From Candidatus Rokuibacteriota bacterium (lineage in GTDB: Bacteria; Methylomirabilota; Methylomirabilia; Rokubacteriales; JACPHL01): DNA of 8,749 nt. The stretch's first letter is position 1, and each line of letters opens with the position of its first letter. Of this stretch, positions 826 through 7,740 are shown piece after piece. The position numbers and the translations under genes are program-made. A model generated the notes under the pieces. The model was not told the DNA's origin. It did no database searches and was given only the letters and a program-made list of their open reading frames with translations. The stretch is taken from contig JACPHL010000118.1 in NCBI GenBank assembly GCA_016188625.1, positions 1-8,749 of the forward strand, read 5' to 3'.

Positions 826-1599
826 TCAGAGGATCTTGCGGTTGAGGTGTTCGGGCGGGACCTCGAGGCCGAGTCCCCGGATCTTCTCGTCGATCTCCTG
901 CTCGTACATCTGGCGCAGCTCGCGGTTGTTCCAGCGCCGGAGACCGTACCCGACCGCGAGGTCGCTGAACCGCGAGTCGGACTTCCCGAAGGTGTCCAGG
1001 GCCCGGGGGTACCACTTGTTGACGGCCGCCTGGAGCTCTTCCTTGCCCGCCCCGGCGAGTCGCGCGTACTCCGGGTTCTGGACGAGATCGCCGGCCCGAC
1101 GAGCCCCGAACGCCGCGTGGAACTTCTCCTCGTGCACCATGGACGTCATCTCCCGCGCCAGGGGGGCGTAGCTGCAGTTCTCCATCGCGTGGAGGTGGTA
1201 CCAGGCGACGAGGTCCATGGTGAAGCAGAAGGTCACGGTATCGACCCAGCTCTCGAAGGGGTAGTTGAAGGCGTCGAGCGGATGCTCGCCCATCCGACGG
1301 CGGAGGAGGTCGTCCACCAGCGCCACCCCGTCGGGGCCGAAGGAGCGGAGCAGCCGGCAGTCGATGAAGCCCTGGTGCGCCTCGTCGGCGGCGATCTGCG
1401 CCTGGATGTACCGGTCCTCCGCGGTCGGCCCCCGGTTGATCCAGGGGTGGTGCTGCTCCACGGAGGCGAATTCCGTGGAGGCCAGCGCGTAGATGAGCTT
1501 CATCAGGATCTGCCGGTACTCCTCCGGCATCTGCTCGACCGTCTCGACCTTCCGCATCCCGAGCAGGACGCCCCACTCGACCAAGCGGGTCACCGACAT
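826..1599 (-). CDS. PaaA-like ferritin-family di-iron oxygenase subunit
   Basis: This 257-residue protein belongs to the phenylacetate-CoA epoxidase (PaaA/PaaC, PF05138-type) ferritin-like family, judged by motif order and by its close resemblance to the second PaaA-like protein at 4137-4850. Candidate iron ligands are E43, D72-x-x-H75, D129 and E158-x-x-H161, one set per helix of a four-helix bundle. In the first ExxH motif Asp replaces the usual Glu. Residues 191-210 (AAVNKWYPRALDTFG and onward) and the tail with 'NNRELRQ' and 'LGLEVP' match the PaaA C-terminal pattern. The chosen ATG at 1597-1599 has a textbook Shine-Dalgarno 7 nt upstream. An earlier ATG at 1642-1644 lies inside the predicted -10 box. 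The likely role is O2 activation for epoxidation or hydroxylation of an aryl-CoA in the cytoplasm. The substrate cannot be read from sequence. The gene diverges from the ligase operon. Confidence 0.8.
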   Translation of the reverse strand: MSVTRLVEWGVLLGMRKVETVEQMPEEYRQILMKLIYALASTEFASVEQHHPWINRGPTAEDRYIQAQIAADEAHQGFIDCRLLRSFGPDGVALVDDLLRRRMGEHPLDAFNYPFESWVDTVTFCFTMDLVAWYHLHAMENCSYAPLAREMTSMVHEEKFHAAFGARRAGDLVQNPEYARLAGAGKEELQAAVNKWYPRALDTFGKSDSRFSDLAVGYGLRRWNNRELRQMYEQEIDEKIRGLGLEVPPEHLNRKIL

Positions 1600-1606
1600 C
1601 GGCGTG

Positions 1607-1615
1607 CACCTCCTT
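1607..1615 (-). promoter_or_regulatory. Strong ribosome binding site fixing the PaaA-like start
   Basis: The minus strand reads AAGGAGGTG here, a full anti-16S match, followed by a 7-nt spacer and ATG at 1599. It decides between this start and the longer frame from 1644, which has no such signal. Confidence 0.85.
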
Positions 1616-1645
1616 GCCGGGGACGTTCGGGCGTCAGCGTCCACG

Positions 1646-1675
1646 ACTCTACCATCGCCCCCCGGAGCGTGTCAA
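1646..1675 (-). promoter_or_regulatory. Sigma70-like promoter for the minus-strand PaaA-like gene
   Basis: On the minus strand a perfect TTGACA (-35, 1670-1675) is followed by an 18-bp spacer and TAGAGT (-10, 1646-1651; 4 of 6 consensus). Transcription would begin near 1639, giving a leader of about 40 nt that includes the ribosome binding site. It lies back-to-back with the plus-strand promoter candidate at 1695-1723. Confidence 0.6.
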
Positions 1676-1694
1676 AGCCTTTGCCGGCGCGCCC

Positions 1695-1723
1695 TTGACG
1701 CCGCTCGGGAAAGCGGCTAAGGT
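1695..1723 (+). promoter_or_regulatory. Candidate promoter of the ligase operon, with internal inverted repeat
   Basis: TTGACG (1695-1700) and TAAGGT (1718-1723) are separated by exactly 17 bp. The -35 is a 5/6 match; the -10 is weak (T, A and final T conserved). The spacer holds the inverted repeat GCCGCT (1700-1705) / AGCGGC (1712-1717), a possible repressor site. A start about 7 nt after the -10 would fall on the GTG initiation codon at 1730. The AAGG inside the -10 (1719-1722) could instead be a weak ribosome binding site if transcription starts further upstream. Confidence 0.4.
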
Positions 1724-1729
1724 AGCCGT

Positions 1730-3325
1730 GTGACGAAGCCCGCCAAGCTCGCCTGGCCCATCGAGCCGCTGGAGTATCAGACCCTCCCCGACGCCTTCAA
1801 CATCGTGAGCCTCCTCGTGGACCGTCACCTGGAGGCCGGGGCCGGGGAGCGCGAGGCCCTCCTCCACCCGGGCGGGAGCGTGACCTACCAGGACCTCTGG
1901 GAGGCGGTCAACCGCGCGGCCCACCTCGTCCGGACCCTGGGCGTCGAGCCGGAGCAGCGCGTCCTGCTCCTCCTCCCCGACTCGCCCGAGTTCGTCTACC
2001 TCTTTCTCGGCGCCATGAAGGCCGGGGCGGTCCCGGTCCCGGTGAACACCCTCGCCGCCGCCGACGAGCACGAGTACTGCCTCCGCGACAGCCGGGCCAA
2101 GCTCCTGGTGACCCACGCCAGCCTCTACGAGAAGGTCGAGGGGGTCTGGCAGGGGATCCCCGGGCTCCGCGCGAGCGTCGTCGTGGGCGGCGCGCCCGCC
2201 GGGTGCCTGGCCTTCGAGACCCTGCACGCGGCCCAGCCGGCCTTCTTCGATCCGGCGGCGACCCACAAGGACGACATGGCCTACTGGCTCTACTCCTCGG
2301 GGACCACGGGGCAGCCCAAGGCGGTCGTCCACCTCCACCACGACATGGTCTTCTGCATCGACAGCTACGCCCGGCACGTCCTCGCCATGACCGCGGAGGA
2401 TCGGACTTTCGCCGTCCCGCGCCTCTTCTTCTCTTACGGGCTCGGATGCTCCCTCTATCTCCCGCTCTGGTGCGGGGGCTCGGCGGTCCTCCTCCCCGAG
2501 CGGCCGTCCCCCGCCGGCGTCTTCGAGGCGATCGAGCGCTACCGCCCGACCCTCTTCTTCTCGGTCCCGACCTCGTACGCGGCCCTCCTCCGCGAGGCCG
2601 AGGGGCGCGACCCGGATCTCTCGAGCCTGCGCCTGGCGATCTCGGCCGGCGAGCCGCTCCCGGCGCCGCTCTACCTGCGCTGGATGGACCGATTCGGCGT
2701 CGAGCTGCTGGACGGCCTCGGCGCCACCGAGGTCGGCTTCATCTACATCTCGAACCGGCCGGGGGCGGTCCGGCCGGGCTCCTCGGGGCAGCTCCTGCCG
2801 GGGTACGAGGCGCGGATCCTGGACGGCGAGGGGCGCGAGGTCGGGCCCGACGAGGTCGGGGACCTCTGGATGAAGGGGGAGTCGGTGGCCGCCGGCTACT
2901 GGAACCAGCATCCGAAGACCAGGGCGACCTTCGTGGGGGAGTGGTACTGGACCGGGGACCGGTACACCCGCGACGCCGACGGGTGCTACTTCTATCAGGG
3001 GCGCGCCGACGACCTCCTGAGGGTGGGCGGGCAGTGGGTCTCCCCCCTCGAGGTCGAGTCGGCGCTCCTCGAGCACCGCGCGGTCGCTGAGTGCGCGGTG
3101 GTGGGCGGGATGGACGCCGACGGCTTGGAAAAGCCTCACGCCTACGTCGTCCCGCGACCCGGCGAGGTCACCGACGGCCTCGAGGAGACCCTCCGAGCCC
3201 ACGTCCAGGCCCGGCTCGCCCCCTTCAAGGTCCCGCGCTGGGTGAGCGTGGTGGCGGAGCTTCCGAAGACCGCCACGGGGAAGATCCAGCGCTTCAAGCT
3301 CCGCGGGATCGACGCGCCGAGGTAA
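1730..3325 (+). CDS. Benzoate-CoA ligase family (AMP-forming aryl-CoA synthetase)
   Basis: This 531-residue ANL-superfamily enzyme adenylates a carboxylic acid with ATP and transfers it to CoA. Visible landmarks are the P-loop 'YSSGTTGQPKAVVH' (188-201), 'FFSYGLGCSLYLPL' (233-246, typical of the benzoate-CoA ligase branch), 'GLGATEVG' (A5, 329-336), 'YWTGDRY' (406-412), the hinge region 'GRADDLLRVGGQWVSP' (424-439) and 'LPKTATGKIQR' (511-521), where K518 is the catalytic Lys. The N-terminal 'AFNIVSLLVDRHLEAG' also fits this branch. Length is normal for the family and no defect is visible. Translation starts at GTG. It is the first gene of an operon with the crotonase (10-bp gap) and a PaaA-like oxygenase. 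The natural acid is probably an aromatic or aryl acid (inferred from family and neighbours); benzoate itself is not proven. Confidence 0.9.
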   Translation: MTKPAKLAWPIEPLEYQTLPDAFNIVSLLVDRHLEAGAGEREALLHPGGSVTYQDLWEAVNRAAHLVRTLGVEPEQRVLLLLPDSPEFVYLFLGAMKAGAVPVPVNTLAAADEHEYCLRDSRAKLLVTHASLYEKVEGVWQGIPGLRASVVVGGAPAGCLAFETLHAAQPAFFDPAATHKDDMAYWLYSSGTTGQPKAVVHLHHDMVFCIDSYARHVLAMTAEDRTFAVPRLFFSYGLGCSLYLPLWCGGSAVLLPERPSPAGVFEAIERYRPTLFFSVPTSYAALLREAEGRDPDLSSLRLAISAGEPLPAPLYLRWMDRFGVELLDGLGATEVGFIYISNRPGAVRPGSSGQLLPGYEARILDGEGREVGPDEVGDLWMKGESVAAGYWNQHPKTRATFVGEWYWTGDRYTRDADGCYFYQGRADDLLRVGGQWVSPLEVESALLEHRAVAECAVVGGMDADGLEKPHAYVVPRPGEVTDGLEETLRAHVQARLAPFKVPRWVSVVAELPKTATGKIQRFKLRGIDAPR

Positions 3326-3335
3326 GGATTCGGAA

Positions 3336-4118
3336 TTGGATTTCCAGGCCATCCGGTTCGAGCTGGCCGACGGCGTCGCCACCGTCACCATGAACCGACC
3401 CGAGCGGCTGAACGCGATCGACGAGACGATGCGCCACGAGCTGCGGGCCCTCGCGGACGTCTGCTACGCCGACGACGCCGTCCGGGTCGTGGTCTTCACC
3501 GGGGCGGGGAAGGCCTTCTCGGTCGGGGCCGACCTCGAGATCTTCGAGCGCGACTGGGACACCCCGGCCTTCCGGGCCCAGAGCCGGCTCCTCACCAACT
3601 TCTTCGGCGACCTCGAGGCCCTGGAGAAGCCGGTCCTGGCCGCCATCAACGGGACCTGCGTCGGCGGCGGGCTCGAGCTGGCCCTGGCCTGCGACCTCCG
3701 GATCGCCGCGGCCTCGGCGCGCCTCGGGTTCCCCGAGGCCAACATCGGCCTGATCCCCGGGGTCGGCGGCTGCTCGCGGCTGGTCAAGCTGGTCGGCTAC
3801 GGGCGCGCCAAGGAGCTGGTCCTCACGGGCGAGCTGATCTCCGCGGAGGAGGCGCGGGCCATCGGCCTGGTGAACCGCGTGGTCCCCGACGCCGAGCTGG
3901 GCGCCGCGGCGCGTCAGCTCGCCGCGCGGCTGCTCGCGCGGGCGCCCCAGGCCCTCGGCCTGGCCAAGCGGGTGATCCGGGAGTGCGTGAGCGCCGACCT
4001 CGCCGCGGGGCGGACCCTGGAGGGCCTCGCCCAGTCGATCCTCCTCAAGACCCGGGACCACCAGGAGGGCGTCCAGGCCTTCCGCGCCAAGCGGCCCCCC
4101 CGCTTCGAGGGGCGCTAG
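3336..4118 (+). CDS. Enoyl-CoA hydratase/isomerase (crotonase family)
   Basis: A 260-residue crotonase. The oxyanion-hole segments are 'GKAFSVGADL' (58-67) and 'NGTCVGGGLELALACD' (105-120). Both acids of classical enoyl-CoA hydratase are kept: E114 in GGGLE and E134 in 'FPEANIG'. 'IPGVGGCSRL' follows. With both Glu residues present, hydratase chemistry is plausible, but PaaG-like isomerisation of a ring epoxide cannot be excluded. It is much shorter than BoxC, so it is not a BoxC orthologue by size. The start is TTG at 3336. AAGGA at 3324-3328 overlaps the ligase stop codon TAA and lies 7 nt before it, suggesting translational coupling. It would act in the cytoplasm on the ligase/oxygenase product. 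Confidence 0.9.
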   Translation: MDFQAIRFELADGVATVTMNRPERLNAIDETMRHELRALADVCYADDAVRVVVFTGAGKAFSVGADLEIFERDWDTPAFRAQSRLLTNFFGDLEALEKPVLAAINGTCVGGGLELALACDLRIAAASARLGFPEANIGLIPGVGGCSRLVKLVGYGRAKELVLTGELISAEEARAIGLVNRVVPDAELGAAARQLAARLLARAPQALGLAKRVIRECVSADLAAGRTLEGLAQSILLKTRDHQEGVQAFRAKRPPRFEGR

Positions 4119-4136
4119 GAGGGAGCTGTCAACGCC

Positions 4137-4850
4137 ATGTTCACGGACAAGATCGAGGCCAGGGACTTCTCCAAGATGCCCAAGGAGTACCAGGACCTCC
4201 TGGTCAGGGTCCTGACCATCCAGGCCGACTGCGAGATCGGCGGCCCCCACATCTACCTGGACCGGTGGGTCCTCACCGCGCCCACCATCGACGACCAGCT
4301 CGTGATGGCCAAGACCGCCAGCGAGGAGGTGGACCACTGCCGGAAGATGCTCGTCCTCCTCCGGGAGGTCGGGGTGGACGGCTCGCACGTCCTCTGGCGG
4401 ACCAAGGCGGAGCGGGCGGTGGACGCCTTCCGGATGGAGATGCCCACCTGGGCCGACGTGGCCGTCTTCGGCTTCCTCATCGACCGGGTGGGGCGCTACC
4501 AGCTCGAGGAGTTCACCGACTGCTCCTACCTCCCGCTCCAGAAGGTCCTCCCCCAGATCCTCCACGAGGAGCGCGGCCACATCAGCTACGGGACGACCAA
4601 GCTCCGCGAGCTCCTCCGGGCGCCGGAGGGGCGGGCCCAGGCGCAGGCGGCGGTGAACCGCTGGTACCCGCGGGCGCTCGACATGTTCGGGCTGTCGGAG
4701 TCCCGGCGGAGCGAGCGGTACGTGGAGTGGGGGATCAAGCGCCGGGGCAATACCCAGGCCCGCCAGGAGTACATGGACGAGGTCACCCCCCTCCTCACCG
4801 AGCTGGGCCTTCAGATCCCCGACCCCCTGGAGGACCGGAAGTACCTCTGA
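4137..4850 (+). CDS. PaaA-like ferritin-family di-iron oxygenase subunit, second paralogue
   Basis: A 237-residue relative of the catalytic alpha subunit PaaA of phenylacetyl-CoA epoxidase, shorter than the roughly 310 residues of enterobacterial PaaA. Both canonical ExxH motifs are present: E64-V-D-H67 and E145-R-G-H148. E33 and D116 are in position for the other two helices. The C-terminal 'WYPRALDMFG', 'WGIKRRGNTQARQ' and 'LGLQIPDP' are typical PaaA features. Alignment by eye with the minus-strand protein at 826-1599 is collinear: D116 with D129, and the 'NRWYPRALD' block with 'NKWYPRALD'. GGAGGGAG at 4118-4125 gives a ribosome site 11 nt from ATG. As last gene of the ligase operon it probably oxygenates the aryl-CoA. 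No PaaB, PaaC, PaaD or reductase lies beside it, so electron supply must come from elsewhere. Confidence 0.85.
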   Translation: MFTDKIEARDFSKMPKEYQDLLVRVLTIQADCEIGGPHIYLDRWVLTAPTIDDQLVMAKTASEEVDHCRKMLVLLREVGVDGSHVLWRTKAERAVDAFRMEMPTWADVAVFGFLIDRVGRYQLEEFTDCSYLPLQKVLPQILHEERGHISYGTTKLRELLRAPEGRAQAQAAVNRWYPRALDMFGLSESRRSERYVEWGIKRRGNTQARQEYMDEVTPLLTELGLQIPDPLEDRKYL

Positions 4851-7403: not shown

Positions 7404-7419
7404 TTCGGAAGATCCCCCA

Positions 7420-7740
7420 GGTCACCGCCACCACTACCTCGCGCCCCATGACCTGCCGCTTCAGGTGGGCGTCGGCGTTGTCCTCCCCGGTGTCGTTGTG
7501 CCGGTACTGGTTGATCGGCTCGTGGGGCGCGAGCTGCTCCAGCCACCGGGTGAAGTCCTGGTGGAGCCCGCGCTCGTCGTCGTTGATGAAGACCGAGGCG
7601 GTGATGTGCATGGCGTTGACCAGGACCAGCCCTTCCCGGACGCCGCTCTCCCGGAGGGACTCTTCGACCTGCGGGGTGATGTTGAGGAACGCCACGCGGG
7701 TAGGGGTGTTGAACCAGAGCTCCTTGCGGTAGCTTTTCAT
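7420..7740 (-). pseudogene. YjbQ/UPF0047-family protein, C-terminally truncated
   Basis: ATG at 7740 opens 107 codons clearly of the YjbQ family (linked in the literature to thiamin-phosphate-synthase-like activity). They include '[19 protein letters not shown]' (45-63), '[17 protein letters not shown]' (79-95) and '[10 protein letters not shown]' (98-107). Family members run to about 135-140 residues and continue with a 'dGrL.LGtW..i...E.DG.R' block. That block is absent in all three minus-strand frames. The sequence changes instead to the zinc-ribbon fragment in a different frame. The YjbQ frame itself has no stop until 7012, so translation would add about 135 unrelated residues antisense to the MBL gene. 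GAGGA 6 nt before the ATG is a fair ribosome site. It is probably non-functional, though the core with the conserved His, Asn, Asp and Glu is intact. Confidence 0.75.

Follow-up and report, generated by a model that had tools for sequence, protein, structure and literature searches.

The window analysed here, an entire 8,749-bp contig (G000:C253), belongs to a 2.6-Mb MAG (84% complete) of a soil/groundwater bacterium (Rokubacteria). It carries two genes of the PF05138 family, which we call A and B, on either side of a ligase gene and a crotonase gene, with the following features:

826–1599, minus strand: gene A, 257 aa, PF05138, from the BoxB/SSO1313 side of the family, with Gln replacing the Fe1 histidine
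1372–1383, minus strand: E73-A74-H75-Q76 codons of A, ExxQ at the canonical ExxH position, invariant in 11 orthologues
1600–1729, between the two strands' genes: 130-bp intergenic stretch separating the divergent A and ligase genes, presumed from the ORF coordinates to be a shared regulatory region
1730–3325, plus strand: benzoate-CoA ligase family protein, 531 aa
3336–4118, plus strand: crotonase/enoyl-CoA hydratase, 260 aa
4137–4850, plus strand: gene B, 237 aa, PF05138, with six of six di-iron ligands (E33, E64, H67, D116, E145, H148)
4326–4337, plus strand: E64-V-D-H67 codons of B, canonical ExxH

Profile scores bore out the first-pass annotation of two PF05138 proteins flanking a ligase and a crotonase: A (108.4 bits) and B (109.6 bits) matched PF05138 over most of the profile (gathering cut-off 28.5), the ligase exceeded the cut-off of the benzoate-CoA ligase subfamily model TIGR02262 (587 against 375 bits), and the crotonase scored 206 bits against ECH_1. 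The solved structures nearest to the ligase were anthranilate-CoA ligase 4WV3 and benzoate-CoA ligase 2V7B. A GTG at 1644 was rejected as the start of A, since the orthologues align from the ATG at 1599.

Beyond these genes, the left end of the contig (1–621, plus strand) holds the C-terminal part of an IS1634-family transposase, scoring 99 bits against a 100-bit cut-off. On the 3′ side of B lie genes for an aspartyl-protease-like protein, a ThiS-like protein, TtuA, an MBL-fold protein and a thiolase. Between the last two we observed an ORF (7414–7740, minus strand) that resembles the YjbQ/UPF0047 family and whose C-terminal end enters an unrelated frame, as if frameshifted.

Family placement and di-iron ligands of A and B

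The two proteins had been described as PaaA-like paralogues, a description that holds for fold and family and fails for PaaA proper. Against the PaaA equivalog TIGR02156 (cut-off 280 bits), A scored 100.3 and B 121.8 bits; against the BoxB equivalog TIGR03225 (cut-off 499 bits, about 470 aa), A, with 257 aa, reached 56 bits and B, with 237 aa, 44 bits; and both were far below the cut-off of the PaaC equivalog TIGR02158 (133 bits; A 28 bits). The first-pass annotation had proposed a PF05138 tree as a check, and in our maximum-likelihood tree (IQ-TREE, 62 sequences) the A orthologues formed a clade (100/100) nested in a larger group (100/99) that also holds BoxB, a protein from contig C217 of the same genome, 4MUD, and archaeal and Rokubacterial homologues. 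Twelve of the 13 B orthologues formed a separate clade of their own (support 96/95), PaaA made up its own 100/100 clade and PaaC also fell elsewhere, with A and B outside both; long terminal branches in several places make the deeper placement less certain.

The AF2 models were confident (pLDDT 91.8 for A, 94.4 for B), and both matched the PaaA, BoxB and 4MUD folds and shared the PaaA/PaaC fold. For A, the best match among solved folds was 4MUD (Z 29.6, rmsd 1.7 over 222 residues), followed by PaaA and BoxB (Z about 26) and then PaaC (Z 23.5); for B, no solved protein was closer in sequence than 4MUD, and its fold too was among the nearest. The C-terminal N[KR]WYPRALD motif that had been used to pair A with B is indeed present in both, but has no value for pairing, because it is common in this part of PF05138 (NFWFPRAVEM in 4MUD).

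The di-iron ligands of PaaA are Glu42, Glu72, His75, Asp126, Glu155 and His158 (PMC4498308). In BoxB, Glu120 and His153 coordinate Fe1, Asp211, Glu240 and His243 coordinate Fe2, Glu150 bridges the two, and Gln116 hydrogen-bonds the substrate (PMC5489048). Alignment showed that B has all six ligands together with a Gln equivalent to BoxB Gln116, and that A has five of the six (Glu43, Glu73, Asp129, Glu158 and His161), with Gln76 in place of the Fe1 histidine and a Leu or Ile at position 39, where BoxB has its substrate Gln116. These ligands are common to most of PF05138 and are therefore not diagnostic of PaaA.

The substitution first reported in A, D72xxH75 instead of ExxH, proved to be one residue out of register. 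The family ExxH corresponds to E73 and Q76 of A, and what is anomalous is that the normally invariant Fe1 histidine has become Gln; D72 belongs to the family pattern and has a counterpart beside the ligand in PaaA (QDEAGHG). The resulting D-E-A-H-Q string was found in 11/11 A orthologues, from Rokubacteria and Alphaproteobacteria, that is, in two phyla. Among the sequences aligned, Gln at the Fe1-His position outside the A clade occurred only in PaaC of E. coli and Dinoroseobacter, in which most other ligands are lost. An assignment of A as a PaaC was rejected on its position outside the PaaC clade and on the ligands that it keeps. Metal binding by A is probable, as its Fe2 site is intact and only one of the three Fe1 ligands is missing; the place of the latter would be taken by the unusual Gln or by His75 next to it. 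Having lost the Fe1 histidine and the Gln116 equivalent, as the non-catalytic E. coli PaaC has (Gln, Leu), A could instead be non-catalytic. The A clade represents a natural, strictly conserved test of the need for the Fe1 histidine in PF05138.

Usual partners, co-occurrence and gene neighbourhoods

The first-pass annotation had seen no PaaB, C, D or E beside the pair, and this was upheld on a wider scale. No paaBCDE-like gene was found anywhere on the 8.7-kb contig; PaaB (PF06243) was absent from the genome itself and over the cut-off in 0/40 relatives, and PaaC (TIGR02158) was over the cut-off in none of these 41 genomes, with positive controls matched in both searches (34 of the 40 relatives are near complete, the MAG itself 84%). 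The possibility of paaBCDE genes lying just outside the window was rejected on the same genome-wide PaaB and PaaC searches. Because relatives in the order mostly carry several PF05138 genes per genome, the absence of PaaB and PaaC is a property of the lineage and not of a fragmented contig. BoxA (TIGR03224) stayed below the cut-off in all 21 genomes searched (this one and 20 relatives), where only ferredoxin-like pieces were found.

A different candidate for electron delivery was met beside B. In three genomes (G001, G005 and G076) B is followed by EtfB-EtfA, once in the order TetR-crotonase-B-EtfB-EtfA; EtfB-EtfA, with ETF identity read from sequence, lie directly downstream of B orthologues at L056 7559–9543, L055 7049–9011 and L103 9035–10793, and two of these three loci also have a 64-aa orphan protein. 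We regard EtfB-EtfA as candidates for supplying electrons to a di-iron oxygenase.

Besides A and B, the MAG has four PF05138 genes (contigs C217, C155, C130 and C339). The C217 protein is a BoxB relative (39% to BoxB) encoded beside a ligase and a crotonase, and the C155 gene adjoins a PaaK-like ligase (576 bits, below the 646-bit cut-off). At the C217 locus (L060 2–8663) we also observed that the ligase is of benzoate type, that an XRE-type regulator is present and, by eye, that there are 4-hydroxybenzoyl-CoA reductase-like genes. At two further loci (L061 8687–11126 and L062 6948–9402), tandem genes for two cysteine-rich proteins come after a PF05138 gene, and a crotonase and a ligase-like gene adjoin; one of the two proteins is weakly similar to reductive dehalogenases, and the pair may be other redox partners. 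On a Rhodococcus plasmid (L112 6968–11023), a lone PF05138 gene has a PDR/VanB-type reductase of its own and stands with a crotonase; PaaB and PaaC are missing.

Across 95 genomes of the phylum, A orthologues were present in 6, B orthologues in 12 and both in 4, leaving eight genomes with B and no A and two with A and no B, the latter state being shared by several alphaproteobacteria. That four of the six genomes with A also have B corresponds to a hypergeometric P of 0.002–0.012, a value not corrected for kinship. Within the phylum, A and B are neighbours in the window and in none of the other genomes: in G001 and G012 they lie on different long contigs, with the flanking genes of both visible, and in G080 the contigs are short. 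Adjacency of A, B and a crotonase recurred only in one alphaproteobacterial MAG (L077/G097), where crotonase, B, A and a thioesterase adjoin; four other alphaproteobacterial MAGs have A without an adjacent B. Beyond that MAG, no further B orthologue was found among 385 genomes of the class, and the plasmid collection yielded no close relatives, only distant ones, all below 60% identity. The first-pass annotation had treated a lack of adjacency in related genomes as evidence against the pair, and a lack of adjacency is mostly what we found, with the alphaproteobacterial MAG as the exception; as crotonase, B and A stand side by side there in another phylum, the association is not a one-off.

Away from the window, A and B keep different company. 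In 6/6 Rokubacterial A-type loci outside the window, including that of a homologue in G010, A stands beside a 4HBT thioesterase; in two genomes A comes before a LigB-type extradiol dioxygenase, and a Liv-type ABC transporter also belongs to the A locus. In G030, A adjoins a benzoate-type ligase fragment. In a marine Rhodospirillaceae MAG (L076 3582–8774), equivalogs of two genes of the oxygen-independent benzoyl-CoA pathway, bcrB (benzoyl-CoA reductase subunit B) and oah (6-oxocyclohexene-carbonyl-CoA hydratase), are found 2 kb away from the A orthologue. B comes after TetR, and what follows it is a class II aldolase/decarboxylase-type gene and an amidohydrolase in five genomes, EtfB-EtfA in the three named above and a benzoate-type ligase in G039; in G081 a gentisate 1,2-dioxygenase-like gene is near. 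The G010 homologue of A, 40–41% identical and with a canonical ExxH, occupies the same chromosomal neighbourhood as A of G001 (flanking genes 57–81% identical). That a homologue with the canonical site sits there, next to the thioesterase and transporter, indicates that the A position belongs to an enzyme and not to a structural subunit, and A itself is probably an enzyme too.

Two oxygenases or two subunits

The reading we favour, and hold to be reasonably probable, is that one module here brings together two aroyl-CoA oxygenases, A and B, each of a single component, and that the metal site of A is altered. The four genes would form an aromatic-acid degradation module in which the ligase converts the acid to benzoyl-, hydroxybenzoyl- or aminobenzoyl-CoA, B acts as a single-component di-iron aroyl-CoA monooxygenase and A as a second one, both coming from PF05138 branches that, like BoxB, would work without PaaB and PaaC. 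The crotonase would then hydrate or hydrolyse the oxygenated thioester (an epoxide or oxepin); where A has its usual neighbours, the 4HBT thioesterase and the ring-cleaving dioxygenase would take it over. A and B would be separate enzymes, probably homo-oligomers, acting on different or successive substrates, and two normally independent modules would have been joined in the window and, perhaps independently, in one alphaproteobacterium. The electron donor would not be of BoxA type, as far as searched, and ETF is a candidate.

As A and B are usually apart in other genomes, two enzymes are more probable than two halves of a complex and fit the data better than one two-subunit enzyme. On this point the first-pass annotation was partly confirmed in what it observed and partly supported in what it proposed. 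A variant aryl-CoA oxygenase arrangement, lacking PaaB/C and BoxA and set beside an aryl-CoA ligase and a crotonase, is supported as a predicted function. The proposed A/B hetero-oligomer does not stand as a general, obligate rule, which is unlikely given that both genes occur in only 4/95 genomes, are neighbours only in the window within the phylum, and that alphaproteobacteria have A without B; a facultative hetero-oligomer where the two co-occur is possible. The literature on SSO1313 and PF05138 paralogues held nothing useful, with no activity, metal content or oligomeric state for close relatives, 4MUD included. Besides the chance that A is non-catalytic and the long branches of the tree, what counts against two separate oxygenases is that the adjacency of A, B and a crotonase in a second phylum exceeds what two unrelated enzymes need.

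This adjacency, along with the co-occurrence in four of six genomes and the fold common to A, B, PaaA and PaaC, is what a PaaA/PaaC-like hetero-oligomer in this organism would account for, with B catalytic and A a structural partner losing its metal site; the Gln and Leu of A at the Fe1-His and substrate-Gln positions are the same letters as in E. coli PaaC. We nevertheless think it unlikely, since E. coli PaaC keeps two ligands and A keeps five of six in every orthologue, A lies outside the PaaC clade, each gene occurs in genomes that lack the other, and a homologue with a canonical site can fill the A locus. Rather doubtful, too, is the proposal that A and B oxygenate one substrate in sequence, for example with B epoxidising or hydroxylating the ring, after which A would oxygenate it again or de-epoxidise the CoA thioester and the crotonase or thioesterase step would follow. 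The shared crotonase in two phyla is consistent with it, the altered Fe1 site of A suggests chemistry unlike that of B, and BoxB has been suggested to catalyse a deoxygenation (PMC5489048); but most genomes with A or B lack the partner, so neither needs the product of the other in general. That A, the ligase-crotonase pair and B were acquired independently beside the IS1634 remnant at 1–621, with no functional link between A and B, would suit the divergent orientation of A and the separation of the two genes in relatives, but is very improbable given the same three families adjacent in the alphaproteobacterial MAG, the benzoate-type ligase fragment next to A in G030 and the ligase next to B in G039.

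Comparison with known systems

Of the aerobic, CoA-dependent systems of PF05138 that oxygenate aromatic rings, two are well described, PaaABCE and BoxAB. In the genomes searched, members of this uncultured order mostly encode several PF05138 proteins each and lack PaaB, PaaC and BoxA; the loci include aryl-CoA ligases, thioesterases, ring-cleaving dioxygenases or ETF and point to unexplored routes of CoA-dependent aromatic degradation with other electron donors. We consider it unlikely, though conceivable, that the A clade is a new PF05138 type, an aroyl-CoA oxygenase or subunit with Gln for the Fe1 histidine that would dispense with PaaB/C and BoxA; where it meets B, the two would act together as a hetero-oligomer or a tandem oxygenase, with electrons coming from a new donor, ETF for instance.

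With the structural subunit PaaC (TIGR02158), A shares the fold, the Gln at the Fe1-His position and the Leu at the Gln116 position, but it lacks one ligand where E. coli PaaC lacks most, belongs to a different clade and scores 28 bits against the 133-bit cut-off. The catalytic subunit of phenylacetyl-CoA epoxidase, PaaA (TIGR02156; 3PVR), resembles the pair in fold and, for B, in the six di-iron ligands; the difference is that neither A nor B falls in the PaaA clade, has the Lys68/Glu49 'lysine bridge' residues or is accompanied by PaaB or PaaC. SSO1313 of Sulfolobus solfataricus (4MUD), a lone short PF05138 protein, is the solved structure closest to A by sequence and fold, but keeps the canonical ExxH and is just 27% identical to A. 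The benzoyl-CoA 2,3-epoxidase BoxB (TIGR03225; 3PER/3PM5) shares with the pair the PF05138 fold and the genomic link to benzoate-CoA ligase and crotonase, and works without a PaaC-type subunit; A falls in its clade (100/99) and keeps the equivalents of Thr119, Ser123, Phe193 and Phe206. A differs from BoxB in its length (257 against 475 aa), its score (56 bits against the 499-bit cut-off), its Gln for His153 and Leu for Gln116, and the BoxA that was not found in 21 genomes, and the C217 protein of the same genome is a separate and closer relative of BoxB than A is.
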